In this document: piece after piece, positions 1 to 64,000 of the stretch
Numbering within the stretch: position 1 is the stretch's first letter
How the letters are laid out: each line of letters begins with the position of its first letter
NCBI GenBank assembly: GCA_002591745.1
Contig: PDLQ01000001.1
Span: 186,001 to 250,000 of the forward strand
Origin: Lewinellaceae bacterium SD302
Lineage (GTDB): Bacteria > Bacteroidota > Bacteroidia > Chitinophagales > Saprospiraceae
DNA length: 64,000 nucleotides
Direction of reading: 5' to 3'
Position numbers and translations under genes: made by a program
Notes under the pieces: generated by a model
The model's input: the letters and a program-made list of their open reading frames with translations, nothing else
Databases searched by the model: none
What the model was told of the DNA's origin: nothing

Positions 1-2433
1 CAGGATGCGGGCGTTATGGTCTATGATGGCGATTCTTTTACCAAATTTGACGAGAAGACCGGACTGAGCTCTAACACGATTTATACCATAGCTGAAGACG
101 AGGAAGGTCATATCTGGTTGGGTGCCGACGATTGTTTGAATCGTCTTGATTTCAAAACCAGTCAGACGGAGGGATTGCCCGGCTACGACGCTGATCTGGG
201 CCTTACGGTAAGCGTTATTTGTGACCTGGACGGAGTAAGGAACGATGAGTTTTTTAGCGACGCCAGCCTGATGGACCGTAAAGGTAATCTCTGGTGGGGC
301 GGAGCCACTGCTCTGCACAGCGCCCGAACCAGCGAGCTCTTTCCACAAGAGGCTCCGCCGGAGTTAAGTCTCGTTAATATCCGTTTGGAAAATGCTAGAA
401 TTGATTTCGGGCAAGACCTTTCGGATATACGCTACGACAGCCTGATCGGACGTAGGAATCTCCCGGTCGGACTGGACCTGCCCACGGAACAAAATGCCCT
501 GAGTTTTCATTTCTCGCCGGGCAATCACCCATTGAAAGAGCATTGTCAATTCACTTTTCGCTTGCTGGGGGCGGAAACCGAGTGGACCAAAGCCCGCAAC
601 GAACCGGTGGCGGAATACCGTGGGCTGGCGGCCGGCAGTTATACTTTGGAAGCAAGTGTGGCGGGTCGCAATGGTATCTGGAGCGAGCCCCTGCGTTATG
701 ATTTTTCTATTCGACACCCCTGGTGGCAACGTTATTGGGCCATTAGCCTCTGGAGCTTGTTGCTGGCCTTCGTGACTTACCGTATTTATCGCCTGGTATT
801 AAAACGCCGCCTCCGCTACGCCGAGGCCAGTAAAGTACTGGAACTCGATGAGTTCAAAACCCGCTTTTACACAAATATCACCCACGAATTTCGCACACCA
901 TTAACGGTTATACTGGGTATGAACGAACGGCTGGAAGGTAACCCGGAGGCTAAAACGTTGATCAAACGCAACGCCGATAAACTGTTGCGCCTGATCAATC
1001 AACTGCTGGACCTTTCGAAGATCGAGAGCGGCAATCTTCCCCTGAAACTGGTAAATACCGATCTGGTAGCCCACTGCCGGTACCTGACGGAGAGTTTTTA
1101 CTCCCTGGCCGAAGAAAAGCGGCAGCGACTGGTTTTTTTCGCCGAAGTGGATAAATTGATCACTGCCATTGACGAAGAAAAAGTACAGTACATATTCCTC
1201 AACCTGCTTTCTAACGCGGTTAAATTTACCCCCGAAGGCGGGCAGGTACTAGTTCAATTAAGCATGGCGGGTGATAAAATTCGCCTGGTGGTCAGAGATA
1301 ATGGCATTGGCATATCCCCCGAAAAACTGCCCCGTATTTTTGAGCGATTTTACCAGGTGGAAGGCGATAGTATGCGCCACGGAGAGGGCAGCGGGATCGG
1401 CCTGGCCTTTACCAAAGAACTGGTGAAGCTGATGGACGGAGATATTAAAGCCGTCAGCAAGCCGGGAAAGGGCACTACCATTATCGTAGAGTTGCCCCTC
1501 TTGAAGCAGGAGGGCGATTTGGATAAGCGTAATTCGTTTGGATTTCATTCCCGTCCGGCCAGACCCAATGGAAGACAGGGTAGCAAGGTTATCGATAACG
1601 CCGAAGTGGTAAGCCAAGCGACCATTCTAACTGACGAACCGATGACTGTTCTAGCTGGTGACGAATCTGAAACCGCACCCGAAAATGAACCCGTACTACT
1701 ATTGGTAGAAGACAATGCCGACCTGGTCAATTATATTCAGCGCTTGGTGCATGATAAGTACCACTTACTCCTAGCCCGCGACGGCCGGCAAGGACTGGAA
1801 ATGGCCACCAAAGAAGTGCCGGACATAATCGTTAGCGACGTTATGATGCCGGTAATGGATGGCTTTCAATTCTGTGCAGCAATCAAACAGGATACCCGCA
1901 CCAGTCACATTCCGGTGATTCTGCTCACGGCCAAATCAACCCAATCAGACAAAGTTCGGGGCTTAGGTTTTGGGGCCGATGCTTACTTGGCCAAACCCTT
2001 CGATGAACAAGAGTTTTTCATTCGGATTGAAAAATTGATCGAGTTGCGGGCTGCGCTGCAAAAGCGCTATAGTGGGTTTAATTCAATCGAGCAGGATACC
2101 AGCAGTAATCCCGAAGAGGTTTTCCTGCGTGAGTTGACCACCGTCATCGAAACCCGGCTGGACGACGCGGAAATGACCATTCCCGAAGTCGCCCGCGCTT
2201 TGGCTCTGAGCCAAACTCAGCTTTATCGTAAACTCAAGGCCCTGACCGGTAAAACACCCTCCCAGTTCGTGCGCCTTGTTCGTCTTAAAAAGGGAGCCTT
2301 GCTACTTTGCCAGCCAGGAAAATCTATTGCCGAAATTGCTTACGCCGTTGGTTTTTCCGACCCCAACTACTTTTCCAAGACCTTTAACGACGCCTTCGGG
2401 AAATCGCCAAGTGATTACCGCAAGGCGTTGTAA
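1..2433 (+). CDS. Hybrid two-component system sensor/response regulator, C-terminal part (5' truncated by window edge)
   Basis: The frame is open from base 1, so the N-terminus (normally a signal peptide plus many beta-propeller repeats) lies outside the window. Counting from the first in-window Met at 16: a last propeller-type repeat (about 1-50, with IWLG), a Y_Y_Y domain (about 165-233), one membrane segment (about 240-258), HisKA with the phospho-accepting His290 in the THEFRTPL box, a HATPase with NLLSNAVKF, DNGIGIS and GSGIGLAF boxes, a receiver with Asp608 in SDVMMPVMDG, and an AraC-type DNA-binding domain (about 700-805). Such one-protein systems sense a periplasmic ligand, often a glycan breakdown product, and activate nearby genes. 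The T9SS protein genes just downstream on the same strand are possible targets, but no SusC/SusD pair is present, so the ligand is unknown. Confidence 0.93.
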   Translation, partial: QDAGVMVYDGDSFTKFDEKTGLSSNTIYTIAEDEEGHIWLGADDCLNRLDFKTSQTEGLPGYDADLGLTVSVICDLDGVRNDEFFSDASLMDRKGNLWWGGATALHSARTSELFPQEAPPELSLVNIRLENARIDFGQDLSDIRYDSLIGRRNLPVGLDLPTEQNALSFHFSPGNHPLKEHCQFTFRLLGAETEWTKARNEPVAEYRGLAAGSYTLEASVAGRNGIWSEPLRYDFSIRHPWWQRYWAISLWSLLLAFVTYRIYRLVLKRRLRYAEASKVLELDEFKTRFYTNITHEFRTPLTVILGMNERLEGNPEAKTLIKRNADKLLRLINQLLDLSKIESGNLPLKLVNTDLVAHCRYLTESFYSLAEEKRQRLVFFAEVDKLITAIDEEKVQYIFLNLLSNAVKFTPEGGQVLVQLSMAGDKIRLVVRDNGIGISPEKLPRIFERFYQVEGDSMRHGEGSGIGLAFTKELVKLMDGDIKAVSKPGKGTTIIVELPLLKQEGDLDKRNSFGFHSRPARPNGRQGSKVIDNAEVVSQATILTDEPMTVLAGDESETAPENEPVLLLVEDNADLVNYIQRLVHDKYHLLLARDGRQGLEMATKEVPDIIVSDVMMPVMDGFQFCAAIKQDTRTSHIPVILLTAKSTQSDKVRGLGFGADAYLAKPFDEQEFFIRIEKLIELRAALQKRYSGFNSIEQDTSSNPEEVFLRELTTVIETRLDDAEMTIPEVARALALSQTQLYRKLKALTGKTPSQFVRLVRLKKGALLLCQPGKSIAEIAYAVGFSDPNYFSKTFNDAFGKSPSDYRKAL

Positions 2434-2602
2434 GCCAGTTGGTTAGTAATTATTTTCGGTCTTGTTGACCAATAATTCCTATACATCGGACGGATAATTC
2501 CCCACCCTTGCCCGATAGCTCGCCTTACTCGCGGCTTAATCATATCAACTTTGTTTCATCAAGCTAGGTCACTGCTGGCTGTGTCTAAAAACCTACATTA
2601 AG

Positions 2603-4798
2603 ATGAAACACAAATACTTTCAAATAACGAGTCTGGTGATTGCGATTTTCGGCATGATTCACCCCTTGCTGGCCCAATTCGACAACAGCGACGTAATCAA
2701 TAACGAGATCCACTGGGCCGCCCGTACCGGCAACCTCTACGCCAATAATAACTGGAACCCTTTCGGGGAAGACCGGATCGCCATGCTGGTTGATATCTAC
2801 GACTACACGAACCTGGACGATTGGCTGGGAGCAGAATGTGCACTATTTACCGTCAATGGGGAAGGAAGCAGTTTTGGTCATCACCAGCTACTGGCCCAGG
2901 CCTACTTCCAGGACTTCAACACCGCTTTGAGCTTCGACCTGGAAGCCTGGGGAGAATCCACCACCCCGAATCAGTGTACTTACGACATTGCCGATTTCTT
3001 ACCGAAGTACCTGGAAAGCGAAATCGACGGCGATCAAGATCAGGATTTCGTGCGACTGGCCGGCGCGGCGGCTTCTTGGTCGAACAACTGGAGTAGTCAT
3101 CCCGCCGAATGGCTGTACAGCGATCCAAATTACGACATGACCATCGAAACGATCTGGCGCTTCGTTGCCGGAGAAACCGCGCAGTCACCGCTACAATTCG
3201 GTACGCTGTCGGCCGATTTACTGTCCTTCGGTGATTTTAATTCAACCGCAGCCCAACCCGATGACTTTGATCCTGCGATCAGTTACTTTGGCTACGAGGA
3301 CAACGGCTATCGCGAAAGCCGGGACGTTTTTTACACTTTTTCCGTTGGCGAAAGAGCTTCCGTGGAAATCACGACCGACCACCCATTCACCAATTTCGAC
3401 ACCTACCTCACCCTGGTGGGTGAAAATGGCGTCATCGAGGTGGATGACGACGGCGGTTCCGGCGTAACGAGCCGGATCAACACCATGCTCTGCCCCGGTG
3501 ATTATACGGTGGTGGTTGACGGCTTCGATATGGCGGCCTACGGAAATTTCAGGCTGATCATCAGTCGTTTATCCAACACGCCTTTCTTCACGACCAGTGT
3601 ATCGATCACACCAGCTAATTGCCCCGAGACGGAAGACGGTTCAATAATGATAACACCTAATAATGGAGTAGCGCCATATACGGTCAGCTGGTCCGACGGC
3701 CTCACCAATTCTTCCCTGGAAAGAAACGGTCTTGGGGTAGGCGACTACGACATGACGATTACTGACGCTTGTGGTACCGAGTTCTCGACCATCATTACGG
3801 TGCCTCACGATGATTTTGAGGCCCCCCAGGCGGAATGTGAACCTTTTTTCGTTACAGTGCCGGAGGGCTCCGTATTCACCTTCGACGCCGCCGAGATAGG
3901 AGCGGCGTCTACTGATAACTGTGCCATCACCAGCTACTCCGTGGATCCGCCCACCTCAGCCGCATTCGATGGCAGTTTTTTTATCACATTGACGGTCGAG
4001 GACGGGGCGGGAAACAGTAACTCGACCTTTTTCTGTGCGGTAAATATGACCGTCGTTCCGGCCTTGGCGGGAGATATCTGCGGCAACGCCGAGTCGGTAG
4101 ACGATCTTTTCGGCGGCCCGATCGGAGAAGTACAGACGCGGGATGGATTGAACAACGTCGGCTATGCTTCCCTCACCGATCCCGTCGATAACTGCTTCGA
4201 ATTCGACGATATCGACGCCAGTCGCTGGTTTACCTTCACCGGTGACGGGGAGACTTACCGCATCGTGGTGCCGAACTGCGGATCACCCAACGGCCTGGAA
4301 AATGAAGACAGCCAGATCATTCTGTACGCCGGTGAGGACTGTAATAATCTGACGGAAATCGCCTGCAATGATGACGAGTTTCCCAGCGTGAACTTTGTGG
4401 CCGGCATCACATTCGTCACCGAGCCCGGTGAAACCTACCGTTTTTTCGTAGACGGCTACGGAGGCGGCTTTGGAGGCGGGGGCGTAGGCAACCCCGAAGG
4501 GGAGTTCTGTCTGGAGGTCATTCGCCAGATGCCGAGTAGCGTGACTAACAAAGTAGCAGTGCCGATTAAACTATACCCCAATCCTGCTTCCGATCAGGTT
4601 ACGCTCGACTTTGGCACGGTGCAAATTTCAAACGACGCTGAACTAATTATTCGAGATATAACGGGTAGATCGGTATGGTCCACTACTTCGGTTAACCCAC
4701 GAATAACCGTGGCTACGGATCACCTGGCTCCTGGGGTATACCTCATAGAACTCAATGATGGTAAGCTCCGGGCAACGAGTCGTCTGCTTATTCAGTAA
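2603..4798 (+). CDS. Secreted multidomain protein with PPC-like, SprB/HYR-like and T9SS sorting domains
   Basis: 731 aa with an N-terminal signal peptide ending near LLAQ. From the N-terminus: an unassigned acidic region (about 25-215); a segment resembling a pre-peptidase C-terminal beta-sandwich (about 240-325, YFTF-like start, DTYLTLV); a SprB-type repeat (about 335-400, ITPANCPETEDG and DACG); a HYR-like domain (about 405-485); a Cys-containing module (about 495-650); and a T9SS type A sorting domain (from about 653, LYPNPASDQ). No catalytic motif was recognised. It is probably exported through the outer membrane and retained at the surface or released. The Cys-containing module and linker are nearly identical to those in the next gene, indicating a recent duplication. 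The start follows from the signal peptide. Confidence 0.85.
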   Translation: MKHKYFQITSLVIAIFGMIHPLLAQFDNSDVINNEIHWAARTGNLYANNNWNPFGEDRIAMLVDIYDYTNLDDWLGAECALFTVNGEGSSFGHHQLLAQAYFQDFNTALSFDLEAWGESTTPNQCTYDIADFLPKYLESEIDGDQDQDFVRLAGAAASWSNNWSSHPAEWLYSDPNYDMTIETIWRFVAGETAQSPLQFGTLSADLLSFGDFNSTAAQPDDFDPAISYFGYEDNGYRESRDVFYTFSVGERASVEITTDHPFTNFDTYLTLVGENGVIEVDDDGGSGVTSRINTMLCPGDYTVVVDGFDMAAYGNFRLIISRLSNTPFFTTSVSITPANCPETEDGSIMITPNNGVAPYTVSWSDGLTNSSLERNGLGVGDYDMTITDACGTEFSTIITVPHDDFEAPQAECEPFFVTVPEGSVFTFDAAEIGAASTDNCAITSYSVDPPTSAAFDGSFFITLTVEDGAGNSNSTFFCAVNMTVVPALAGDICGNAESVDDLFGGPIGEVQTRDGLNNVGYASLTDPVDNCFEFDDIDASRWFTFTGDGETYRIVVPNCGSPNGLENEDSQIILYAGEDCNNLTEIACNDDEFPSVNFVAGITFVTEPGETYRFFVDGYGGGFGGGGVGNPEGEFCLEVIRQMPSSVTNKVAVPIKLYPNPASDQVTLDFGTVQISNDAELIIRDITGRSVWSTTSVNPRITVATDHLAPGVYLIELNDGKLRATSRLLIQ

Positions 4799-4924
4799 GA
4801 GTTTGTTGGGATTTCAGATTTGAGGTGAGTTGCTGGCCAATTGGCCAAATTTTGGATTCCCTACAAGCTCTAACCTTTTTGTTTCCTCCAGTTTCGTTTA
4901 CTCATATTCTAAATCAACTCAACA

Positions 4925-6841
4925 ATGAAGCTATTTCTCATTTTCCTCGCGGCCCTTGCCGTGAGTGGGGCACTCACTGCCCAAAACTTCGTAGAGGCTC
5001 CTCAGTCCTTTATTCAGGTTGGGGCCAGCTCGATTGCTTTCGGAAACGTTCGAAACCTGCCCAGCGGAAATTCGGACCTGTTCATTTCCGGCCGTAATGA
5101 TTCCGGCGATGTTGTCTCCATCTTATACGGAAACACGGGGGGAGGCACATTCTCTTCTTTCCCCGTCAGCGGTATACCTGCCTTCAGCAACGGAACGGCT
5201 ATTTTTGGGGATGTGGACAGCGACGGAGACGATGATATTTATATCTCCGGAATTACTGAAGATTTTAGTGACGGGCTGGGCAACCTTTATTTTAATGACG
5301 GTAATGGTTTCTTTAGCGCACTTTCACCTTCTCCCTTTCGTGAACTGCAGCGTAGTGCGGCGGCATTTATAAATCCGGACAATGACAACACCGTAGACGT
5401 TATAACCCTGGGGAACGAGCCCAGTGAACCCGCTGGCCGAACGGACTTCTATGCCAACATTAACAATAGTGAATTTCTCGAAGCCGTTGCTTTTCCTTTG
5501 GATGACCTGAAAACCGGTGCCGTGGCCGTAACCGACGTAGATGGAGACGGAAACGAAGACGTGATGATTACCGGGAGTAATGAAGCAAATGGCTCCTCAT
5601 TGGAATTTGTCAGTAAGCTGTACCGTTACGATGGCCTGGGAAACTACGTCGAAGTAGTTGGTAACCCCTTCATTGGAGTGATCCACAGTAGCCTTGATTT
5701 CGCCGACGTTGATAACGACGGAGATCAGGATGTTTTCATTACCGGCACGCAGATCAACGGAGCAGAGACTGCTCGCCTTTACTACCACGTCAGTAATGGC
5801 CAATACGAAGAGGCTATGAATCAGCCGTTTACCGGCGTCGAGTACGGTGCCAGTGAGTTTGCAGACATCGATGGCGACGGAGACGTAGACCTTATCGTCA
5901 CCGGGCAAATGCCTGGTGATGACCCTTACACCCAACTATTTCTTAATGACGGGGCGGGCAATTTCTCTGAGCTGGATAATAACTTACAAGACGTCTACTT
6001 CAGCGCCGTTGCTTTCAATGACGTAGACGGAGACGGAGACCAGGACCTGCTGATCTCCGGCTTCATTGACGACGATAACGTTTTTACCCGCCTATATCTG
6101 AATGAACCCTTTGCTGGAAACATCTGCGAGGATGGGCAATCAGTTAATACTTTGTTCGGCGGCCCGGTTAACGAGGTGCAAACGCTGGATGGCTTGAACA
6201 ACATCGGTTATGGCTCCATAGGCGATCCCGAGAACAATTGCTTTCAGTTCGACGGTATCGATGCCAGCCGCTGGTTCACTTTCACCGGAGACGGAGAAGC
6301 GTACCGGATTGTAGTGCCGAATTGCGGTTCGCCCAATGGTCTGGAAAACGAAGATAGCCAGATAATCCTTTATTCCGGCGATTGTAATAACCTCACCGAA
6401 GTTGCTTGCAACGATGATGAGTTCCCCGCAATAAATTTTGTCGCAGGTATAACTTTTAGCACCGAGCCCGGCGTAACCTATCGCTTTTTTGTGGATGGCT
6501 ACGGCGGTGGCTTCACGGGCGGCGGCGTAGGCAACCCCGAAGGAGAGTTTTGCCTGGAGGTGATTCGCCAGGAACCTAGTAGTGTGACTGACAAAGTAGC
6601 AGTGCCAATTGAGTTGTATCCAAATCCTGCTTCCGACTGGTTGACCTTTAACTTAGGGGGCATGTATATTTCTAACGATGCCAGCTTAGTTATTCGAGAC
6701 CTTAACGGGCGAAAAATTTGGGAGGGGCACCCCAGTGGCACACAAATGACCGTAAATACCGCAGGTTTTGCTGCCGGCGTCTATACCGTGGAACTGTATA
6801 GTGGAAAGTACCGGGCAGTGAGCAAATTAGTGATCAATTAA
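4925..6841 (+). CDS. Secreted FG-GAP/VCBS-repeat protein with T9SS sorting domain
   Basis: 638 aa; signal peptide of about 20 residues ending ALTAQ. Residues about 35-400 contain repeated calcium-binding FG-GAP/VCBS-type motifs: DVDSDGDDDIYISG, DVDGDGNEDVMITG, DVDNDGDQDVFITG, DIDGDGDVDLIVTG and DVDGDGDQDLLISG, each expected to form one blade of a beta-propeller. They are followed by the same Cys-containing module found in the preceding gene (about 400-555) and a C-terminal T9SS domain (LYPNPASDW). The likely role is extracellular binding or adhesion; no enzyme motif is visible. The two genes are only 126 bp apart on the same strand and share a C-terminal half while their N-terminal halves are unrelated. 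Confidence 0.87.
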   Translation: MKLFLIFLAALAVSGALTAQNFVEAPQSFIQVGASSIAFGNVRNLPSGNSDLFISGRNDSGDVVSILYGNTGGGTFSSFPVSGIPAFSNGTAIFGDVDSDGDDDIYISGITEDFSDGLGNLYFNDGNGFFSALSPSPFRELQRSAAAFINPDNDNTVDVITLGNEPSEPAGRTDFYANINNSEFLEAVAFPLDDLKTGAVAVTDVDGDGNEDVMITGSNEANGSSLEFVSKLYRYDGLGNYVEVVGNPFIGVIHSSLDFADVDNDGDQDVFITGTQINGAETARLYYHVSNGQYEEAMNQPFTGVEYGASEFADIDGDGDVDLIVTGQMPGDDPYTQLFLNDGAGNFSELDNNLQDVYFSAVAFNDVDGDGDQDLLISGFIDDDNVFTRLYLNEPFAGNICEDGQSVNTLFGGPVNEVQTLDGLNNIGYGSIGDPENNCFQFDGIDASRWFTFTGDGEAYRIVVPNCGSPNGLENEDSQIILYSGDCNNLTEVACNDDEFPAINFVAGITFSTEPGVTYRFFVDGYGGGFTGGGVGNPEGEFCLEVIRQEPSSVTDKVAVPIELYPNPASDWLTFNLGGMYISNDASLVIRDLNGRKIWEGHPSGTQMTVNTAGFAAGVYTVELYSGKYRAVSKLVIN

Positions 6842-10487: not shown

Positions 10488-10580
10488 AGGTTGTTTAAAA
10501 TTTTGGCTGGCAAAGTAGCAGAGTTTTTGATCAGAGCAACGCTAGACCATTGGGCCATAGACAAAACTTTGGGCTGAAAT

Positions 10581-10777: not shown

Positions 10778-10805
10778 TTACATTTCCACACTGCTACTTT
10801 GTTAG

Positions 10806-12329
<1,524 letters not shown>

Positions 12330-14595: not shown

Positions 14596-14655
14596 ATATT
14601 ATAAACCTATTTATCGCTTGTTGTAAAGCGGTTGGAATTACCTGAATTCAAACTT

Positions 14656-15789
14656 ATGCGAATCGACCACGCCGGCCGTACCTACCGTTTCAAGCGTTAC
14701 CCGGAAACGAACAATCATTCACTTCAGCCCATCAGTGCCGCTGATGAGTTGTTGTTGAGTGGCTATCAAAGTAGCAAAGTTGACAAAAAGGGAACGGCCT
14801 TATTCCACGATCGCTTTGGCGTGCTGGCTTGTCTTCTTCACGACGACAAGCCACAGTTCGTTTCTACTTTTATGAGTCAGCAACGGGCATTGGGGAACAA
14901 CCTGGCGGAAAATAAACTGGGGCCGCTTCCAGGAGAAGAATTGGGTATTCTGTCTAAGCTGAAAGCAAGCCAAATCGGCTTACTACGGGTTCCGAAGTCA
15001 CTGGAACTGTTCGAGCTGTACCTCAGCCAATTTGCCCGAATGGCCGCCACTGCCGACCCTGATAAACCGCCGGTACTATTAGCAGGTTTTATGACGCGCC
15101 ACTTTACGCCGGCATTGCTAAAAATTGCGGAACGCTACGCCAATTCGGTGGAGCAGGGTAGAGCAGTCAAAAAGGCGCGGGTACTTACCATCGGCGAATT
15201 CAAAAAAAATACGCCTTCGCCGGATGAGTTGATTCATAGTATCACTTACGGAGAGCGTACTTACCAGCAATACTACGGTGTTTTCTCCGCTAACCACATC
15301 GATTACGCAACCCAGTTCCTGCTGGAATACGCCGAGAAAAATGACTGGTTTGGACTGTCGGCTTCAGAAGATACGCGGGTGGTAGACATCGCTTGTGGTA
15401 ATGGTGTCATCGGTGCAGAGTTGATGGCCGGTCGTCCGAAAGCCAGACTTATCTCATTCGATGATTTGAGCCTTGCTACTTTGTCAGCCAACAAGAATTT
15501 ACCAAGCAAACGTAGCCGGATTATCTGGGACGACGGCCTGAGCCAGATCGCAGATGATTCAACAGATCTTGCCATTACCAACCCACCCTTTCACTTTGGC
15601 CATGAGACGAATATTGAAGTGAGCTTATCGCTTTTCAAACAAGCTAAGCGAGTACTGAAGCCGAACGGGCAACTAATCATTGTGTCGAACCGTCACCTGA
15701 ATTACACTTCACATTTGCGGCAACTTTTTGGTAGTGTGGAAACGTTGATGGATAACCCGAAATTCGAGATATTGCGGGCCAGACCCTAA
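14656..15789 (+). CDS. RlmG-like class I rRNA (guanine-N2) methyltransferase
   Basis: 377 aa from the ATG at 14656. A TTG start at 14632 would add eight residues, but the ATG matches the start of E. coli RlmG better. The N-terminal half is a degenerate methyltransferase-like domain, the usual RmsC/RlmG arrangement. The C-terminal half has the SAM motif VVDIACGNGVIG and the catalytic NPPF box (ITNPPFHFGHETN); the end (IVSNRHLNYTSHL, LFGSV, NPKFEIL) follows the RlmG pattern closely. E. coli RlmG makes m2G1835 in 23S rRNA; the same target here is inference. An 11-bp gap links it to the serine protease gene downstream. It contains two copies of the TGCTACTTTG motif. Confidence 0.85.
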   Translation: MRIDHAGRTYRFKRYPETNNHSLQPISAADELLLSGYQSSKVDKKGTALFHDRFGVLACLLHDDKPQFVSTFMSQQRALGNNLAENKLGPLPGEELGILSKLKASQIGLLRVPKSLELFELYLSQFARMAATADPDKPPVLLAGFMTRHFTPALLKIAERYANSVEQGRAVKKARVLTIGEFKKNTPSPDELIHSITYGERTYQQYYGVFSANHIDYATQFLLEYAEKNDWFGLSASEDTRVVDIACGNGVIGAELMAGRPKARLISFDDLSLATLSANKNLPSKRSRIIWDDGLSQIADDSTDLAITNPPFHFGHETNIEVSLSLFKQAKRVLKPNGQLIIVSNRHLNYTSHLRQLFGSVETLMDNPKFEILRARP

Positions 15790-24017: not shown

Positions 24018-25517
24018 CTACTGTTGTTTTTGTATTAAATCTCCCACAATCCGCGCCGACAACAAACAAAGCGGCACCCCGCCCCCCGGATGCACACTCC
24101 CGCCCAAGAAGTAAAGATCATTGATTCGCTTACTGAAATTCGGATGACGCAGGAAGGCAGAAAAAGGATTGTTGCTGGAAGTCCCGTACAGAGCTCCCTG
24201 GTGAGATCCGGTCAGTATCTCCAGGTCGGAAGGACCCAAAATACGCTCTTCCTCGATCAAGTCTGCAACTGATTCCGGACGATCTTTCAACAATATGCGG
24301 TCAATTTTATCAATTACTTGCTGACGAAGCTGGGCTTTCAAAGTGTCCCAGTCTTGTCCGGCGTCGGCGGGTGCATTAACCATCACGAACCAGTTTTCTT
24401 TACCCGCCGGGGCGTCTTCTTTCACCAGCTTACTGCTGACGTTGATGTAAACTGTCGGGTCGTCACTGAGGTCACCGGCTTCCATGAGGTTAAATTCTTG
24501 TTGGTAGTCGTCGCTGAACAAAATGTTATGAACACCCAATTCAGCGAAGTCGGCACGAATACCCCAATAGAAGATCACGGCACTGGTGGATTTTTGCTGT
24601 CGCAGCGTTCGTTCGGGCTTTCTGGCCGTAGGTAAGAGCTTGTCGTAAGCGAGAAATACGTCCATATTACAGACGACCAGATCAGCGGAACTATGATGCC
24701 CCGTGCTCGTCCGAATGCCGGTAGCCCGCTCGCCTTCGAGCGTGATCTCTGCTACTTTGTTAGCCAGAAAAAATTGCACTCCCAACCGCTTGGCCAATTC
24801 GTAAACAGAGCGACTGATGTCGTACATACCACCCTCCGGCAAGTAGGCTCCGAAGTGATGTTCGAAGTGAGGAATCATGCTTAGCAGACCCGGTGCCTTG
24901 TAGGGGTTGCTACCGTTATAAGTAGCGTAACGGTCGAAAAGCTGGACCAGTTTTGGATGCCCGAGGTCACGTTCGTGAACTGCGTGCATACTTTTAAAAA
25001 GGTCCAGTCCCGGAATTTTAAGCATGGTTTTGGCCACCTCCCAACTCAACCAGGTGTCGGCTTTGTGCAGGCTTTTTTCCAGGAAAATGCGGCCGCTGCT
25101 GTCGTACTTTTTGGCCGCCTGAGCCATGAAGTCGATGATTTTTTGCCGATCTACCCCAAAGGCCGCCGCGCAATTATCCGCCAGTTGAGCAATCTCAGCC
25201 GGGGCATCCAGGGTCGTACCGTCTTCCCACCAGTAATGACAGACGATGGGGAGCTGCTGATAGTTGAAATGATCACGCGGGTCCTCACCGGCCAACACGA
25301 AGAGTTCGTCGACATACTGCGGCATAGTGAACAGGGAAGGACCAAAATCGAAGCGGTAGTCACCCAGCGAAAACTGACTCAGTTTGCCGCCTGGTGCCTC
25401 GTTCTGGTCGTAGACCTCTACCCGATAACCCGCTACGGCCAACCGGACGGCAGCCGCCAAGCCAGCGATGCCCGCCCCGACAATAATGGCTTTTTTTGAC
25501 TGGCTGTCTTTTCCCAT
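24018..25517 (-). CDS. CrtI/CrtD-family FAD-dependent carotenoid desaturase
   Basis: 499 aa. The N-terminal dinucleotide-binding motif IIVGAGIAGLAAAVRLA (residues 11-27) is followed by PGGKLSQFSLGDYRFDFGPSLF, typical of phytoene-desaturase-like oxidoreductases; the C-terminal GGSVHPGGGVPLCLLSARI is the second FAD-binding signature. The FGPSLFTMPQYVDELF wording resembles the 3,4-desaturase (CrtD-like) branch seen in Bacteroidota more than CrtI proper, so a role in making a carotenoid pigment is likely, with the exact double bond unknown. No other carotenoid gene is nearby. The start ATG overlaps the stop of the upstream isomerase by one base (TAATG), implying translational coupling. Confidence 0.85.
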   Translation of the reverse strand: MGKDSQSKKAIIVGAGIAGLAAAVRLAVAGYRVEVYDQNEAPGGKLSQFSLGDYRFDFGPSLFTMPQYVDELFVLAGEDPRDHFNYQQLPIVCHYWWEDGTTLDAPAEIAQLADNCAAAFGVDRQKIIDFMAQAAKKYDSSGRIFLEKSLHKADTWLSWEVAKTMLKIPGLDLFKSMHAVHERDLGHPKLVQLFDRYATYNGSNPYKAPGLLSMIPHFEHHFGAYLPEGGMYDISRSVYELAKRLGVQFFLANKVAEITLEGERATGIRTSTGHHSSADLVVCNMDVFLAYDKLLPTARKPERTLRQQKSTSAVIFYWGIRADFAELGVHNILFSDDYQQEFNLMEAGDLSDDPTVYINVSSKLVKEDAPAGKENWFVMVNAPADAGQDWDTLKAQLRQQVIDKIDRILLKDRPESVADLIEEERILGPSDLEILTGSHQGALYGTSSNNPFSAFLRHPNFSKRINDLYFLGGSVHPGGGVPLCLLSARIVGDLIQKQQ

Positions 25518-28120: not shown

Positions 28121-28143
28121 TAACATTGAGGTATTAGTACTAA

Positions 28144-28152
28144 CAAAGTAGC
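28144..28152 (-). promoter_or_regulatory. Intergenic copy of the TGCTACTTTG motif upstream of the reductase gene
   Basis: On the minus strand the sequence reads CATTGCTACTTTGTTAGTAC, with the core matching all other copies. It points toward the geranylgeranyl reductase gene, 151 bp away. Confidence 0.5.
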
Positions 28153-28268
28153 AATGTTTTTAGAAGCAGACCGTCGTTCATGTGGCGACAACCCAAGAAT
28201 CACGGAGACGATCAGTAAAGTTCATTACCAGAGCTAAGGCAACTAGCTTTATAAAACACCTGGCTTGC

Positions 28269-32152: not shown

Positions 32153-32242
32153 ATTCACCCGGGATAGTATCCTGGGATATTTGGGTTGACTGCTCCGCAG
32201 TATATGGGTGGAGCGCTAAGATAGGAAACGGTGGCTTGTTGA

Positions 32243-39959: not shown

Positions 39960-40616
39960 ATGAATCATTCCACTACGCTTCGTGACTACCGAATCGGCCA
40001 ATTGACGGTACACTTAGAAACGATTGATGACACTGAATCTTTACTCGATGATCTGATCGAACGTGGGCCAGCAGACCCCGACTATCAGGACGAGGTGTTA
40101 CCCTATTGGGCCGATCTCTGGCACAGCGCGCTCGGCCTGGCGGAGAGTATGGTAGAACGTAGTGACGAACTTCGTGGTAAAAAGGTCATCGAGCTGGGCT
40201 GTGGACTGGGCTTACCGGGAATCGCAGCGGTGATGCTGGGCGCGGAGGTTACGTTTACCGACTACGTTGCCGATGCTCTGGATTTCGCACGCCTTAACCT
40301 GGAGCATAACGTACCGGAACACAACGCCCGCTTTATGGAGTTGGACTGGCGCAAACCCGCCCTCAAAGAAACCTTCGATTTTGTGTTGGCCGCAGATGTT
40401 GCCTACGAAAAGCGGTTTTTCAAACCCTTATATAGTACCATCAGAGGCTTGCTGGCCCCTAACGGTCAGTGCTGGCTTAGTGAACCGGGGCGGCCGATTG
40501 CCAGAGAATTTTTATCCGGCTTTACGGATCATGGTTTTCAGGAGATTTGGCGGACTAACAAAGTAGCAAGCCTGGATGGGGTCAAGAGAACGGTTAGCAT
40601 CCGGGCAGTGGGTTAA
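39960..40616 (+). CDS. Class I SAM-dependent methyltransferase, lysine/nicotinamide N-methyltransferase-like
   Basis: 218 aa. The SAM loop VIELGCGLGLPGIAAVMLGA (residues about 76-95) and VTFTDYVADALDFARLN are followed by FDFVLAADVAYEKRFFKPL. This D-x-x-Y (DVAY) box and the overall shape resemble the METTL21/ETFB-KMT group, which methylates protein lysines, and older nicotinamide N-methyltransferase-like annotations. The true substrate is unknown. A dispersed TGCTACTTTG copy lies within the last 60 bases of the gene. It is preceded by a promoter that ends four bases before the ATG, and diverges from the metal-uptake operon. Confidence 0.83.
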   Translation: MNHSTTLRDYRIGQLTVHLETIDDTESLLDDLIERGPADPDYQDEVLPYWADLWHSALGLAESMVERSDELRGKKVIELGCGLGLPGIAAVMLGAEVTFTDYVADALDFARLNLEHNVPEHNARFMELDWRKPALKETFDFVLAADVAYEKRFFKPLYSTIRGLLAPNGQCWLSEPGRPIAREFLSGFTDHGFQEIWRTNKVASLDGVKRTVSIRAVG

Positions 40617-41663: not shown

Positions 41664-41756
41664 GTACGAACATACGCGTTGTGCTGGAGGTTCCTGATTT
41701 GTAAAGGTGTAAGATCACACCTATATTACAGTTATTCAAGCACCAAACACACAAGC

Positions 41757-43241
41757 ATGAGACAATCTCTTACCCTGATTAAAGCAGGCCTGGTCCTGTT
41801 GGTATTGCTTTTCAGCACTGCTACTTTGTCAGCTCAAAAAAACCAGGTAGCACTGCGCTACATCGCCCCGAACTACATCCTCGGGCTTGGTAAAGTTCCC
41901 ACTCCTCTGGAAGGCGCCGAAACTTTTGGCAGCGGGCTGGAATTCGAGTATCAGCGTCGAATAGCGCCGAACTTTTTACTGGGGGTGCCCATCCGGCTTT
42001 CCACCGGTGAAGCCCTGGTCAATATGGAGGATGCCAGTAAAGACCCCGTGAATCCATTCACCGATGTAGAAGAACTATCCGTGATTGGGGGTAACCTGTT
42101 GTTCATCTTTGAACCGATTGCCCGGTCGAGCGTATTCGATCCACAGATTTTTACGGGCTTTGGTGCCTTCAACGACTTTGATGGCAACACGACGGCGGAA
42201 TTGCCGATTGGTGTTAATCTAAATCTACGACTCGGTAATGGTTTTTACCTGTCACCACAAGCCTCCTGGCGTTTTGCTTTCGGCCCGGATCAGGACATCC
42301 GTCGGAACGTTCAACTCGGCATCGGAGCTCATCTGCAACTGAACGCCGAGCCCGTGGAGCCGGAGCCACCAGCAGTGGTCGACTCCGATGGTGACGGTAT
42401 TGAAGACAGTGCCGACCAGTGCCCCAACCAGGCCGGCCCAGTAACCACCCTCGGCTGTCCGGATACTGACGGTGACGGTATTGCCGACAAAGACGACAAG
42501 TGTCCCGCGATAGCTGGCACCTCTGCCTACATGGGCTGTCCGGATACGGATGGTGACGGTATCGCTGACCCGGACGACGGCTGTCCCGAACAAGCCGGCC
42601 CGGAAAGCAACAATGGTTGTCCGGTAACCGACCGGGACGGTGACGGTGTTCCAGACGCCGAAGATAAGTGCCCCAATGAGGCTGGTCTGTTAACCCTGAT
42701 GGGTTGCCCTGATTTCGATGGCGATGGCATTGCCGACCGCGATGACGATTGTCCGCGCGTAGCTGGTCTGGCCAAGATGAATGGTTGCCCTGATACCGAT
42801 GGAGATGGCGTAACGGACCGTGATGATAAGTGTCCAAAACAAGCTGGCCCGGCTACGAACCAGGGTTGCCCCGAAATTACCGTGGAAGACCAGGAAACCA
42901 TCGATTTTGCCATCCAGAACATCAATTTCGAGACCGCTAGTGCCACGCTGACGGCCGAAAGCCGTTCGGTACTGGATCGGGTTGAGGATATCCTGCGCCG
43001 TTACCCGGGTTACATGCTCGCCATTGGCGGACATACGGATAGCGTTGGCTCCGCAGAATCTAATCAGAAGCTAAGTAATCGCAGAGCTGAATCTGTTTAT
43101 ACCTACCTCGTGGGCAAAGGCATTATTGCCGCCCGGATGAGTTACGCCGGATTCGGTGAAACCATGCCGATTGCCGACAACCGTTACAAAGACGGCAGAG
43201 AGCAGAACCGCCGGGTGACGCTTGATTTGTCAATTCGGTAA
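41757..43241 (+). CDS. OmpA-family outer membrane protein with six thrombospondin type 3 repeats
   Basis: 494 aa from the ATG at 41757, which gives a proper signal peptide (ending TLSAQ); an upstream ATG at 41679 would place 26 polar residues before it. An N-terminal beta-barrel of about 190 residues is followed by six calcium-binding TSP3-like repeats (each DxDGDGIxDxxDxCP, about residues 205-370) and a C-terminal OmpA peptidoglycan-binding domain (INFETASATLTAESRSVLD, GHTDSVGSAESN, LSNRRAESVYTYL). It anchors the outer membrane to the cell wall. The dispersed motif TGCTACTTTG lies in the signal-peptide coding part. Confidence 0.93.
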   Translation: MRQSLTLIKAGLVLLVLLFSTATLSAQKNQVALRYIAPNYILGLGKVPTPLEGAETFGSGLEFEYQRRIAPNFLLGVPIRLSTGEALVNMEDASKDPVNPFTDVEELSVIGGNLLFIFEPIARSSVFDPQIFTGFGAFNDFDGNTTAELPIGVNLNLRLGNGFYLSPQASWRFAFGPDQDIRRNVQLGIGAHLQLNAEPVEPEPPAVVDSDGDGIEDSADQCPNQAGPVTTLGCPDTDGDGIADKDDKCPAIAGTSAYMGCPDTDGDGIADPDDGCPEQAGPESNNGCPVTDRDGDGVPDAEDKCPNEAGLLTLMGCPDFDGDGIADRDDDCPRVAGLAKMNGCPDTDGDGVTDRDDKCPKQAGPATNQGCPEITVEDQETIDFAIQNINFETASATLTAESRSVLDRVEDILRRYPGYMLAIGGHTDSVGSAESNQKLSNRRAESVYTYLVGKGIIAARMSYAGFGETMPIADNRYKDGREQNRRVTLDLSIR

Positions 43242-47134: not shown

Positions 47135-48343
47135 ATGCCGAAATTCTACGCCGCCCAGGTAGCCGCAGTGGCCGAAGCCCTGGAAATTATTTTCAACGAA
47201 GGTAAATACGCCGATCGCGTCATTGCTCAGGTCTTGAAAGCCGATAAGCGAAGGGGAAGTAAGGATCGGGCCTTCATCGCCGAGCAGACTTACGAAGTCG
47301 TCCGCCATTACCGTCGCCTCGCCGAGCTGGCCGGGGGTGAACCGAAAACCAGGAAGGATTGGTGGCGCCTCATCGGTATCAGAATGTTGTTGGACGGTGA
47401 GGAATTGCCAGCCTGGAAAGAATGGGAGGGTTTGGATGCCGTTCGGCTGCAAAAGGAGAATGCCGAGCTCGAAAAACAGCTTTGCTACTTTGCCAGCCTA
47501 CCAGACTGGCTGGATGAACTGGGGCGCCAGGAATTGGGAGATGAATGGGAGCCTACCGCGAAGGCACTCAACCAGCCCGCCGACGTTATCCTGAGGGCTA
47601 ACCGACTAAAAACGGACCCCGCTGCCCTGCAAATAGCGCTGCGGGAAGACGGTATTGAAACCGATTTGCTGAGCGCCGACGGACTGCGCGTCACCAAACG
47701 CAGGAATCTGTTTCGTACCCGTGCCTTTCGGGAAGGATTGTTCGAAGTTCAGGATTTCAGTAGTCAACAGGCCGCGCCGGCACTGGACGTAGCCCCTGGA
47801 ATGAGCGTGATTGATGCCTGCGCCGGAGCCGGAGGTAAAACGCTTCATTTGGCCGCGCTGATGGAGAATAAAGGACGGGTGATTTCACTGGATACCGAAG
47901 CGTGGAAGCTTAAAGAACTTAAAAAGCGGGCGGCTCGTAACGGGGTACAGAACGTAGAAACCAGAGCCATTGAGAGTAGTAAAACCATCAAGCGACTCTA
48001 TGGCAAAGCCGATCGCTTATTGCTGGACGTTCCTTGCTCAGGTCTGGGCGTATTGCGCCGTAATCCGGATGCCAAGTGGAAGTTATCACCGGAGTTCATC
48101 GAAAGATTGCGCGGCGTACAGCGGGAAATCTTGCAACGCTACCCAAAAATGGTGAAGCCGGGCGGTAAAATGGTTTACGCTACCTGTAGTGTACTACCCA
48201 GTGAGAACGACGCACAACTGGATCACTTTCTGAATAGTGAGGCGGGTGCGGATTGGACCTTGATCGACAAACAGACGTTCCTGCCGCAACGGGACGGGTT
48301 TGACGGATTCTTCGTTTCCCGACTAGAAAAAAGGCAGCCTTAA
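47135..48343 (+). CDS. RsmB/RsmF-like RNA (cytosine-5) methyltransferase
   Basis: 402 aa. An N-terminal NusB-like helical domain (about 1-110) precedes a Rossmann methyltransferase: VIDACAGAGGKTLHLAALM (SAM site), RLLLDVPCSGLGVLRRNP with Cys301 (motif IV) and VYATCSVLPSEN with Cys351 (motif VI), the usual nucleophile pair of RNA m5C enzymes. E. coli RsmB acts on C967 of 16S rRNA; the same target is likely but unproven. The final 21 bases overlap the convergent HAD-like gene. A dispersed TGCTACTTTG copy is inside the gene. Confidence 0.9.
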   Translation: MPKFYAAQVAAVAEALEIIFNEGKYADRVIAQVLKADKRRGSKDRAFIAEQTYEVVRHYRRLAELAGGEPKTRKDWWRLIGIRMLLDGEELPAWKEWEGLDAVRLQKENAELEKQLCYFASLPDWLDELGRQELGDEWEPTAKALNQPADVILRANRLKTDPAALQIALREDGIETDLLSADGLRVTKRRNLFRTRAFREGLFEVQDFSSQQAAPALDVAPGMSVIDACAGAGGKTLHLAALMENKGRVISLDTEAWKLKELKKRAARNGVQNVETRAIESSKTIKRLYGKADRLLLDVPCSGLGVLRRNPDAKWKLSPEFIERLRGVQREILQRYPKMVKPGGKMVYATCSVLPSENDAQLDHFLNSEAGADWTLIDKQTFLPQRDGFDGFFVSRLEKRQP

Positions 48344-54304: not shown

Positions 54305-54394
54305 TTTTTTAATTGCTAAAGCAGCTTAATAAGCGTAAAAGTTCGATTTTCCTTGTTATAAAACCTTGCTACATTGATAGCCAAACAACACATT

Positions 54395-57003: not shown

Positions 57004-58170
57004 TTGAATACAGTATCCCGTCTTTCCGCTCTTTTAATTGCCATTACACTGGCCTCCACCCTGCCGGCTCAATCTTTACTGGATCGGGTGACGGATTGGT
57101 TTGAATTCGATCTGCGTAAGCCACGCCTGGGCGATACTGATACCACTTTCATTCCCAAGGTAGTTCTATCACCTACGGTTTCCTACGAGCCGGCGACCAG
57201 CCTCGGAGTGGGTGCTGGCATCAAAATATTGTTTAAGCCCAAAGGCGCAGGCCCTGAAACGCGCACCAGTAACGTGCCGATTGGATTAACGTACACCTTT
57301 AAGAATCAGCTGATCTTCAACTCGGGTTATACCGTCTTCTTTCCAGAGGAACGCTGGTTGCTACGCGGTAATCTGGGCTATTCTGATTTTCCCGTACTCT
57401 TCTTCGAGTCGGGGCCGCGCTCTCAGCGGTCCGATGCCCACGACATCCGTTACCGAAGGATTTTGGTAGAACCTTTGTTACTGCGCAAGATCGGTCAGAA
57501 CGACGTGTTTTTTGGTGGTGGCTTTCGTTTTAATCGATTCTTCGACCTGGGCCTGGAAGAACCGGAGGACGTGAATAATCCGGACTTCAAAGTAGCAGAG
57601 TTGGCATCTGCCTCGGTTGGCCTGGAACTTGCTTTCTCCGTAGATGACCGGGATAACGTACTGAATGCCTCCGAAGGGAAGTTTCTGGAATTTACCCACG
57701 GTTTTTACGGTAAAATTCTGGGGGGGACTCATCAGTTTATGCTTTCAAAAGCTGATTACCGGGGCTACATCCGCCCATCCTCCCGTAATGAAAATGTGAT
57801 CGCTTACCAACTTTACGCCCGTTACGCCTGGGACGGAACCCCGAATCTGGAGCTTTCCAGTTTGGGCGGGGCAGAGTTGCTTCGTGGATTCAGGGAGTTT
57901 CGCTGGCGCGACCGGCTGGCCTACTTCGCTCAGGTGGAATATCGTTACCAGGCCTTCCGGAAACTGGGGTTCGTATTCTTCGGTGGAGCGGGTGACGTGA
58001 GCGGAGAAGATAATCCGGCCAATTTTAATACTTTGAAGTACAGCCTGGGTGCCGGCATCCGGATCAAGATCATCGAATCAGAAAACCTGAACGTTCGTTT
58101 TGACTATGCACTGGGGATGGGACGGAGCAACGAGCGAAACTTTTATTTGGGTATCGCCGAGGCTTTCTAA
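57004..58170 (+). CDS. BamA/TamA-type (Omp85 superfamily) outer membrane barrel protein
   Basis: 388 aa from a TTG start, the first usable codon giving the signal peptide (ending TLPAQ). The mature protein lacks POTRA domains and consists of a surface-antigen barrel: LSPTVSYEPATSLGVGAG, then paired strands and, near residue 300, LLRGFREFRWRD, the Omp85 RGF/Y hallmark that lies inside the barrel, ending in NFYLGIAEAF. Short POTRA-less members are widespread in Bacteroidota; their cargo is unknown. A dispersed TGCTACTTTG motif is inside the gene. Confidence 0.85.
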   Translation: MNTVSRLSALLIAITLASTLPAQSLLDRVTDWFEFDLRKPRLGDTDTTFIPKVVLSPTVSYEPATSLGVGAGIKILFKPKGAGPETRTSNVPIGLTYTFKNQLIFNSGYTVFFPEERWLLRGNLGYSDFPVLFFESGPRSQRSDAHDIRYRRILVEPLLLRKIGQNDVFFGGGFRFNRFFDLGLEEPEDVNNPDFKVAELASASVGLELAFSVDDRDNVLNASEGKFLEFTHGFYGKILGGTHQFMLSKADYRGYIRPSSRNENVIAYQLYARYAWDGTPNLELSSLGGAELLRGFREFRWRDRLAYFAQVEYRYQAFRKLGFVFFGGAGDVSGEDNPANFNTLKYSLGAGIRIKIIESENLNVRFDYALGMGRSNERNFYLGIAEAF

Positions 58171-58296: not shown

Positions 58297-58346
58297 TGCC
58301 GGTTGCAAGAACAACTGCTTTTGCCTTCACCGGCATTGCTACTTTG
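58297..58346 (+). promoter_or_regulatory. 7-bp inverted repeat and TGCTACTTTG motif upstream of otsAB
   Basis: TGCCGGT (58297-58303) pairs with ACCGGCA (58329-58335); three bases later comes the dispersed motif core GCTACTTTG (58338-58346), 25 bp before the ATG and oriented toward the gene. The arrangement suits a promoter with an operator. Confidence 0.45.
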
Positions 58347-58371
58347 AAGCCAAAAAACCATAAATCCAAAG

Positions 58372-60567: not shown

Positions 60568-60568
60568 C

Positions 60569-61810: not shown

Positions 61811-61844
61811 CGCAGCTTAAACTCTGAAATCGCGTTTTTGATCA

Positions 61845-62378: not shown

Positions 62379-62535
62379 TTGCTGGAATTAATTTTGGAGA
62401 GCGCCTCAAGCTATTCTCCCGGATATAGTGCCCGTCGGCAAGATTGAAAAACCGTCATTTCTCCTCCCTTGCGTCCGTGCCCTCGGTGTGAGGTCTCGTT
62501 ATTGATGGCTGGAAAAAATGGAAAGCCTCAGTTTA

Positions 62536-64000
62536 TTAACGGACCACCAATTTATGACGTTGCAACTCGCCATTAGCACGAAGCAGCACGAAGTATACCC
62601 CGCTCGGCCAGTCATTGGTATCGAATTGATGGACGGGTCCGTTCATCCGGGCGCTATAAACTACTTGCCCTCCGGAGGAAATTACCGAAAGCTGTCCGCT
62701 CAGCAATGATTCGCTTTGCAGATGAACCAGTCCTCCGCTGGGGTTGGGAAAGAGTTGGAAACTATTTTCCAGTACGACTTGCTCGCGGTTATTTACCGCC
62801 GTTTCTTCAGAAATGAGTACTACCAGATTCTCGCGGCCACCAAGACTCAGTTCCAGTTGATGATCAGAGAACCCGCCATTTTCATTGATCGTGATGGTAC
62901 CCAGGCTTTCATTGTTCAGGAGGTCGGTCAGGAAGTATTCGCCGGCTGATAAAGTAGAAGCACTCAAACTTACGGACGGAGATTCGATGCCTTCGTTGCT
63001 GAAATTGGAAAGTACAAGGGCAGCCTCTTGCTGATGTACCCGGGCAAAAGTAAGTAACTGCTCATCGTTGCTGGATACGTCCAGGTAATTCCCTTTTCTC
63101 AGGCTGGGCTGCTCGTTACGGAGGTGGATGTAACGCTTGTACTGGGACAGAATCGAGCCGGGGTCCGACGCCAGCATTGCTACATTGTTAGTCAAAAAAT
63201 TCGGCCCCAGTCCGTACCAGGGGGTAGCGGAAGAAAAACCGGCATTTGCTGCGTCACTCCACTGCATGGGGCGGCGAATGTTGCGGTGGTCACCCGTGCC
63301 GAGCATGCCGAGTTCCTCGCCGTAATAAACGAAGGGTACGCCGGGTAAGGTGAGGTAGATGGCCGCGGCCAGTTTCATTTTGCTTTCGTCGCTGCCCAGA
63401 TTGTTGAAGACCCGATCCATATCGTGATTGGTCAGGAAAGTCCCGTATTGGAGAGCGGGGTAGGAGGCGCGAATCTCATCAATTTGCTGGCGAATGGCCG
63501 TAGGGTTACCACTGTTGACGGCCCCCTGAATATCGCCGGCCAGGTCGAAGTCGAAGCAGGCGTCCAGACGGTCGTTTTGCACGTAGGGGATAATGGATGG
63601 GGTAGAGGACCAGACTTCGCCAATGGAGAAAACATCCGGGTTAGCTGCGTGATAAACGTCGTTGAACTCTTCGAGTAAGGCGAAGGTCTCCGGGGTGTTT
63701 TCGAGAACAGTACCATCTTCAATGAGGTATTTAATGGCGTCTAGCCGATAGCCGTCGACTCCCAGATCAAGCCAGAAATCGGCGACGTTGAACATTTCCG
63801 CTTTTACGTCGGGGTTCTCGTAGTTCAGGTCCGGCATGCCGCTCCAGAAAAGGCCGTAGAAATATTCACCGCTGTTTTGGTGCCAGACGTTTTGCCCCCA
63901 GGGGCCGGGGAAGGCGGGATTGTCTTCGGACCAGATGTACCAGTCGCGAAATTCTGCGCTACCCGCCGCGGATTGGTTGAACCAGGGGTGCTGGCTGCTG
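62536..64000 (-). CDS. Secreted GH13 alpha-amylase-family enzyme with T9SS domain (N-terminus beyond window)
   Basis: The frame is open from base 64000, so the signal peptide and first part of the barrel are missing. The visible 488 codons hold the catalytic residues: GYRLDAIKYL (nucleophile Asp), FSIGEVWSS (acid/base Glu) and FLTNHDMDRV (third Asp), then LPGVPFVYYGEELGM, a C-terminal beta domain (about 320 to 400) and a T9SS sorting domain (LFPNPSGGLVHL, SGVYFVLLRANG). It hydrolyses alpha-1,4-glucans such as starch or glycogen outside the cell. A family-65 fragment and a trehalose synthase gene occur nearby, but no Sus operon is visible. Confidence 0.92.
   Translation of the reverse strand, partial: SSQHPWFNQSAAGSAEFRDWYIWSEDNPAFPGPWGQNVWHQNSGEYFYGLFWSGMPDLNYENPDVKAEMFNVADFWLDLGVDGYRLDAIKYLIEDGTVLENTPETFALLEEFNDVYHAANPDVFSIGEVWSSTPSIIPYVQNDRLDACFDFDLAGDIQGAVNSGNPTAIRQQIDEIRASYPALQYGTFLTNHDMDRVFNNLGSDESKMKLAAAIYLTLPGVPFVYYGEELGMLGTGDHRNIRRPMQWSDAANAGFSSATPWYGLGPNFLTNNVAMLASDPGSILSQYKRYIHLRNEQPSLRKGNYLDVSSNDEQLLTFARVHQQEAALVLSNFSNEGIESPSVSLSASTLSAGEYFLTDLLNNESLGTITINENGGFSDHQLELSLGGRENLVVLISEETAVNNREQVVLENSFQLFPNPSGGLVHLQSESLLSGQLSVISSGGQVVYSARMNGPVHQFDTNDWPSGVYFVLLRANGELQRHKLVVR

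Follow-up and report, generated by a model that had tools for sequence, protein, structure and literature searches.

A dispersed, oriented motif with strand-specific spacing in the genome of a Lewinellaceae bacterium: a candidate self-DNA recognition signal

The stretch of DNA analysed here, referred to below as the window, comprises 64,000 nucleotides from Lewinellaceae bacterium SD302 (contig PDLQ01000001.1, positions 186,001 to 250,000), and carries between and within its genes a short, oriented word, TGCTACTTTG, that occurs 16 times, against 0.08 expected from dinucleotide shuffles of the window. From the letters of the window alone, exact copies of the core GCTACTTTG had been listed at 16 places, always after a T and in 14 cases continuing as NNAG. 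All 16 are present at those positions, with the preceding T in 16 of 16 and the NNAG continuation in 14 of 16, and, as had been described, 12 of them lie in open reading frames (ORFs) and 4 between ORFs. The near-copies that had been added to the list fared less evenly. Those at 54368 (27.8 bits) and 63179 (30.0 bits) are sites of the longer motif described below, whereas the one at 20241, GCATTGCTACTTTACCTTC, lacks the downstream part of that motif and scores below 14 bits. A further site, absent from the first list, lies at 36135–36144 on the plus strand (21.6 bits).

Beyond the window, the predicted excess over chance is borne out and larger than stated. The host genome, 147 contigs with 5,478,864 bases in all, carries 1,344 copies of TGCTACTTTG, and 16 (9 + 7) copies of its reversed word, used as control. 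As for strand bias, for which a check had been suggested, there is none (675 forward and 669 reverse copies). An order-5 Markov model, of the kind proposed for judging the excess and trained on the very 386,275 bases that were counted with the motif itself included, predicts 4.15 copies where 95 are observed. In 1,754,847 bases, perfect cores (445, against 6 reversed) outnumber singly mismatched ones, whose count of 181 is near the reversed-control level of 152.

The word is the core of a motif of ~27 bp, RRCAYTGCTACTTTG-(NT or A)-AGYCMAAAAA, which is conserved between about −5 and +21, as judged from the 234 exact copies in 975,185 bases whose context is complete. The order of its elements is R, R, C at −3 (94%), Y at −1, the core, A-G-Y-C and an A-rich tail at +16 to +21; weak signals are also present at −16 to −13, and the edges are graded, the conserved part being limited to the ~27 bp. 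The core is non-palindromic, and the logo shows that the motif is not G-rich. The tail following TTTG assumes two forms that differ by one base in spacing, class A (NTAGYC-like) and class B (AAGYC). These account for 204 and 88, respectively, of 329 exact copies in 1.35 Mb, with 37 in neither class; seven of 336 copies were dropped for missing context or a score below 14 bits. In full motif context, the core tolerates G at position 0 and any base at position 6, and 272 pattern matches include 134 exact cores, 14 of GGCTACTTTG and 7 of TGCTACCTTG, besides the rarer forms TGCTACATTG (7), TGCTTCTATG (5) and TGCTACGTTG (5). Counted without regard to context, TGCTTCTATG is the commonest double variant of the core (16 copies against 6 reversed). 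A weight matrix with a cut-off of at least 14 bits gives 398 sites in 1,354,847 bases; an earlier matrix of like kind, at the same cut-off, gave 281 sites and a single one on reversed sequence (0.93 Mb).

The arrangement of these sites depends on the strand. Over ~3 kb, sites on the same strand exclude one another and sites on opposite strands do not, and this per-strand exclusion is new in the present work. In the first 1.35 Mb, orientation alternates in 292 of 391 neighbouring sites, and same-strand spacing has means of 6.8 and 6.6 kb with coefficients of variation (CV) of 0.53 and 0.54. The pattern recurs in two contigs outside matrix building (400 kb, 125 sites), where 86 of 123 neighbours alternate, the same-strand CV is 0.53 and 0.55, and no same-strand pair lies closer than 1.2 kb, against 23.4 for random placing and 16.6 (standard deviation (s.d.) 2.9, lowest 9) in 500 label shuffles. 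Taking all 523 sites, 5 such pairs are found, against 71.4 (s.d. 5.6, lowest 54) in 500 label shuffles. Relative to random placing, same-strand density is 0.02–0.13 below 1.2 kb, 0.28–0.47 at 1.2–3 kb, and at least 0.77 beyond. The exclusion persists in genic sites only (1 pair below 1.2 kb, 9.3 expected) and in intergenic sites only (0 pairs, 15.0 expected).

Opposite-strand pairs closer than 300 bp number 88, with densities 3.4-fold and 4.1-fold those of random placing, an excess that is expected if both strand sets favour short intergenic regions. At 300–2,400 bp, a range chosen post hoc, convergent pairs are rarer than divergent pairs (49 vs 76, p = 0.02), and the independence of the two strands is therefore imperfect. 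The motif score tends to be slightly higher the farther a site lies from the nearest strong same-strand site (Spearman 0.15, p = 6e-4), a trend that is missing for distance to the opposite strand (0.02, p = 0.64); a direct comparison of same-strand distances between weak and strong sites is not significant (p = 0.09). The orientations are equally frequent and interleaved, with none of the strand polarity of the KOPS type (FtsK-orienting polar sequences).

As a control, spacing was determined for the uptake signal sequence (USS). The Hin-type USS pattern is abundant in three of 398 genomes from the phylum of Asaia, and two of these were used, by position only, with 1,063 and 1,052 cores; the control is partial, with few sites and no Neisseria. 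The 99 same-strand gaps taken from one strand of the first genome have a CV of 1.11, and 20% of them fall below 1.2 kb, against an expected 26%. For the second genome, orientation alternates in 23 of 48 neighbours, and the CV of its 46 same-strand gaps is 0.86. Gaps shorter than 0.18 of the mean make up 11% and 6.5% in the USS controls, against 1.1% and 1.5% in the host and an expected 16.5%. At most, USS thus show a mild shortage of short same-strand gaps, and they show no alternation.

Intergenic DNA is about ten-fold denser in sites than ORFs, which were called by length alone and have crude starts. The densities per kb are 1.48 in co-directional, 1.75 in divergent and 0.70 in convergent intergenic regions, and 0.15 in ORFs; the corresponding counts among the 398 sites are 120, 70, 17 and 182, with 9 at edges or in very short gaps. 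It had been claimed that intergenic copies face the adjacent gene start. This applies to the four in the window but not genome-wide, since the sites in co-directional regions are split between 59 that follow the direction of the genes and 61 that oppose it. Of the 70 sites in divergent regions, 48 face the nearer gene start. Genic sites are scattered along the ORF, with 41 of 182 in its first tenth, in sense and antisense alike. ORFs hold 110 of 234 exact copies, of which 80 begin at the third codon position, and one of the six frames is closed to the core by an in-core stop codon. The sites in the window are collected in Table 1. Two of them (36129–36216) form an inverted pair, 66 bp apart, within the gene for a TonB-dependent receptor.

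Table 1 Motif sites in the window, with core form, tail class, strand, location and weight-matrix score
Core	Class	Position	Strand	Location	Score (bits)
exact	A	2294..2321	+	in ORF 16-2433(+)	30.9
exact	A	4537..4564	-	in ORF 2603-4798(+)	30.2
exact	A	6580..6607	-	in ORF 4925-6841(+)	31.1
exact	A	10499..10526	-	intergenic	34.3
exact	A	10786..10813	+	intergenic	31.1
exact	A	14755..14782	-	in methyltransferase ORF 14632-15789(+)	32.6
exact	A	15468..15495	+	in methyltransferase ORF 14632-15789(+)	32.9
exact	A	24744..24771	+	in ORF 24018-25517(-), CrtD-type desaturase	32.8
exact	A	28132..28159	-	intergenic	33.9
exact	A	29665..29692	+	in ORF 29576-32158(-)	30.9
near, TGCTACGTTG	B	36129..36156	+	in ORF 33783-36293(-)	21.6
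exact	A	36189..36216	-	in ORF 33783-36293(-), TonB-dependent receptor	21.8
exact	A	40547..40574	-	in ORF 39960-40616(+)	24.0
exact	A	41813..41840	+	in ORF 41679-43241(+)	33.0
exact	A	47477..47504	+	in ORF 47135-48343(+)	29.2
near, TGCTACATTG	A	54361..54388	+	intergenic	27.8
exact	B	57576..57603	-	in BamA/TamA-family ORF 57004-58170(+)	26.8
exact	B	58331..58358	+	intergenic, upstream of ORF 58372-60567(+)	32.6
near, TGCTACATTG	A	63172..63199	+	in ORF on the - strand	30.0

Among the sampled genomes, motif richness is restricted to the host, a member of the Saprospiraceae that resembles Lewinella and Neolewinella. The host is of Bacteroidota type by its Pfam matches, which include Por_Secre_tail, SprB and BshC, and the relatives of one host protein are Saprospiraceae metagenome-assembled genomes (MAGs), Lewinella sp. 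W8 and two distant ones from other phyla. The core has 1–12 copies in each of 20 congeners. The pattern TGCTACTTTGNNAGYC occurs 714 times in the host and 0–2 times in each of 297 other family genomes, and CNYTGCTACTTTGNNAGYC occurs 665 times in the host, once each in 3 of 394 other phylum genomes, and in none of the rest; the family and phylum sets overlap slightly and are samples of these groups. In some family or order genomes the bare 10-mer exceeds its reversed control (40 vs 22, 38 vs 15, 28 vs 1). The longer pattern is absent from the two family genomes with a raised 10-mer count, and G078, of the same order, was counted by the 10-mer alone. In two viral-contig scans, all 53 stretches of one and the 80 listed of 101 in the other have a single match each, so that no motif-rich phage was seen among them, and a plasmid search with one 1.3-kb piece gave no match. 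In an Oligoflexales MAG (G345), the bare 10-mer lies ~50 bp from many contig starts, on the plus strand, which suggests an unrelated repeated element at assembly breaks. In a 100-kb piece of one congener (G013, C14:3600001-3700000), the frequent words overlap (AGTTGCGAGTTGCGA), and these word counts suggest a tandem repeat.

Where homologues can be aligned, the sites look as if gained by substitution. In the BamA-family gene, the site encodes FKVAEL, and homologues at 96, 73 and 61% identity are ungapped across the motif; a one-residue gap column just upstream of it comes from two other homologues. In the methyltransferase gene, the plus-strand site encodes ATL in a conserved stretch that is ungapped relative to the homologues, and the minus-strand site falls in a variable, gapped part of the protein alignment. 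A near-site on contig C93 is ungapped against a relative with 66% identity. Usable alignments thus cover four sites, none of them with a close strain; at three of these sites there is no gap, and the fourth is in a variable stretch. A search for covering homologues reached 7 of 182 genic sites, only one of them above 50% identity, and 3 of the 7 are gapped near the core, in alignments of 34–45% identity.

The longest stretches free of sites in 1.35 Mb measure 25.6, 19.4 and 14.8 kb; a fourth, of more than 13 kb, reaches the end of its piece. The longest holds a defence island with DrmD-like, OLD-type, type III-like and GmrSD-type genes; metal efflux is represented in the second, by a P-type ATPase and an AcrB-family efflux gene, and the third carries a type I restriction system. 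The gene content of these three stretches, a small sample, suggests that they are recent arrivals. A motif-free defence island on host contig C60 (30933–48479) adjoins an ATP synthase gamma gene, and contains a DrmD-like helicase, candidate PDC-M16A/B proteins (one with TOTE-type domains), a type III-like helicase, an OLD nuclease and a GmrSD-type protein.

Based on these properties, the repeated word may form the core of a genome-wide signal for recognising self-DNA, comparable in action to USS and the DNA uptake sequence (DUS), a reading to which we give slightly less than an even chance. Abundance, sharp consensus, A-rich 3' flank, preference for non-coding DNA and lack of strand bias would, taken together, be the hallmarks of an uptake sequence, and to this extent the uptake signal named among the options of the original prediction fits; same-strand exclusion and the failure to find a pilus-type ATPase do not fit it. 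Lineage specificity, length, the A-rich tail and the intergenic preference of the motif are our grounds for leaning to uptake. The signal is probably one for uptake that is read directionally by a reader other than a pilus. A receptor would prefer DNA that bears the motif, conspecific DNA so marked would be taken up and recombined, and the motif would accumulate by substitution where the sequence tolerates change. That a site is lost near a same-strand site (~3 kb) but kept beside an opposite one suggests a one-sided, saturating reader, which would act on one side of a site over a few kb. One-way import starting at the site could yield the per-strand spacing, as could a Chi-like enzyme working from one side. 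We infer that a DNA-binding receptor reads the motif for the purpose of DNA uptake, and that this one-sided reader is not a type IV pilus. The full proposal, of an oriented ~27-bp self-DNA signal that acts one-sidedly over a few kb, tiles the two strands independently, serves a machine other than a type IV pilus and has arisen in one Bacteroidota lineage, is more tentative, and we regard it as somewhat doubtful. A directional self-DNA signal of such a kind is not described in the literature searched.

Three features do not fit an uptake function: spacing that depends on direction, confinement of the motif to a single genome among those sampled, and the lack of a pilus ATPase. Uptake is orientation-independent according to Bakkali 2007 (PMC1939737; like the other papers, cited here from excerpts), so a plain uptake drive does not predict same-strand exclusion, and the strong exclusion in the host is unmatched in the USS controls (CV 0.53–0.54 vs 1.11 and 0.86). 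USS and DUS are common across their families (PMC1626085, PMC3630211), and no such sharing, or dialects, is found among relatives of the host: 0 of 20 congeners are enriched for this word, and four congeners have no comparable dispersed word among the top eight words per length in 100 kb each. In favour of uptake, the host has DprA and, among the competence genes that the original prediction had named, ComEC; the latter occurs in 21 of 21 genus genomes searched and so does not explain a motif present in the host alone. A search with PF00437, which did not extend to secretins and pilins, found no PilB/PilT-type ATPase in the host; its two weak matches are other ATPases, a ClpB-type protein and an AAA_11/AAA_12 helicase. 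In Neisseria and H. influenzae, uptake uses type IV pili (PMC7965970). Uptake also has a precedent within the Bacteroidota, since Riemerella columbina can reportedly be transformed, with a preference for its own DNA, although the authors list only A/T-rich frequent words there (PMC7965970). Uptake sequences have been described for Pasteurellaceae and Neisseriaceae (PMC7811141). In open-access titles and abstracts we found no Bacteroidetes DNA uptake sequence, which does not imply absence from print, and searches of the open-access literature for Lewinella natural transformation and for a Saprospir- uptake sequence found nothing.

Per-strand spacing would also follow if the motif were Chi-like, i.e., read from one side by a translocating or end-processing enzyme for which extra copies within a few kb are redundant. 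Such a signal would account for exclusion between same-strand copies, with the opposite-strand copies a nearly independent set, for the rise of the score with same-strand but not opposite-strand distance, and for the lack of orientation in co-directional intergenic sites, and a 1,085-aa frame of the host includes an AddB-type PDDEXK_1 nuclease domain. However, this domain (PF12705) occurs in 21 of 21 genus genomes searched and the motif in the host alone. Furthermore, a motif of ~27 bp with a variable spacer and an A-rich tail is not the short G-rich word expected of Chi, preference for non-coding DNA is not known as a Chi trait, and the difference in same-strand distance between weak and strong sites is not significant. 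We consider the Chi-like reading unlikely, if a serious candidate, and the preference for uptake over it is not secure. A chromosome-organising site, through which a nucleoid or SMC-related protein would fix the spacing of domains on each strand independently by binding the oriented motif, agrees with the regular same-strand spacing, in the first 1.35 Mb and the held-out contigs alike, with the genome-wide spread, and with the unoriented co-directional sites. It is nevertheless improbable: no reader is known, the equal and interleaved orientations lack polarity of the KOPS kind, and regulatory binding sites derived by point mutation are usually looser in consensus (PMC1626085).

The remaining explanations are very improbable, each for different reasons. 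High copy number, enrichment in one genome of the genus, intergenic preference and the three gapped alignments among the seven covered sites could be reconciled with a mobile short repeat, similar to repetitive extragenic palindromic (REP) elements or miniature inverted-repeat transposable elements (MITEs), copied into ~1,300 places, but the conserved part spans no more than ~27 bp and fades gradually at its flanks, ORFs hold 110 of 234 exact copies, 80 of them in the frame starting at the third codon position, and three of four usable alignments are ungapped, the fourth site lying in a variable stretch. On account of the graded flanks and ungapped homologues, from the few sites that could be examined, we judge a mobile repeat very unlikely. 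A global transcription factor site or promoter element, the regulator option of the original prediction, draws on the orientation of the four exact intergenic copies in the window, on the divergent sites facing the nearer start and on the share of genic sites (41 of 182) that fall in the first tenth of an ORF, the starts being crudely called. This option is rejected as hardly credible, because co-directional sites are evenly oriented and ORFs contain 182 of the 398 sites, oriented either way. Finally, same-strand exclusion could reflect purging of recombining direct repeats, in addition to whatever function the motif has. Direct repeats are indeed the most depleted class, and the effect fades with distance. 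On the other hand, USS cores are also direct repeats, yet short same-strand gaps are no more than mildly depleted among them, and the shared core is short for homologous recombination, which leaves purging the faintest of prospects.

If the uptake reading is correct, sequence-tagged self-DNA recognition would have arisen a further time, with another reader, in a member of the Bacteroidota without a pilus ATPase. The per-strand spacing also bears on the old question of whether such motifs spread by drive alone or have a directional function, since drive with orientation-blind uptake would not be expected to produce it.

Among known systems, the USS of Pasteurellaceae shares with the host motif a non-palindromic core of ~10 bp, an A/T-rich 3' flank, about a thousand copies without strand bias, an excess of perfect over singly mismatched cores, a preference for non-coding DNA and the occurrence of close opposite pairs. 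The excerpts of Redfield 2006 (PMC1626085) describe AT-rich 3' motifs for USS, and for USS and DUS a non-coding preference, an orientation bias that is not significant, some close opposite pairs, a spacing somewhat more regular than random, and a strong consensus that is called a puzzling shared trait. Even spacing as reported by Karlin is cited in Bakkali 2007 (PMC1939737), where its meaning is contested. Unlike USS, the host motif has another sequence, in another phylum, is found in one genome and not a family, is not accompanied by a pilus-type ATPase in the search made here, and shows strong same-strand exclusion where the two USS controls show mild exclusion at most. The DUS of Neisseriaceae is likewise a short word of high copy number. 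ComP is a pilin. It is the DUS-binding protein, and DUS has thousands of copies and is kept within species (PMC3630211). DUS dialects vary one word across much of the family, whereas the 20 congeners of the host are not enriched for the motif word.

HIP1 of cyanobacteria is also a highly iterated genome word of debated function. It is a palindromic octamer tied to DNA methyltransferases (PMC4390886), whereas the host motif is oriented and long. A HIP1-like motif, the third option of the original prediction, is rejected, as the core TGCTACTTTG is not palindromic, and a KOPS-like site is rejected for want of strand polarity. Known Chi sites are G-rich, 5–8 bp long and shared by relatives, and constitute a directional signal that is needed on both strands every few kb. 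The host motif differs from them: it measures ~27 bp, is A-tailed, has a variable spacer and, within the genus, is enriched in a single genome. Its per-strand exclusion is consistent with directional action.

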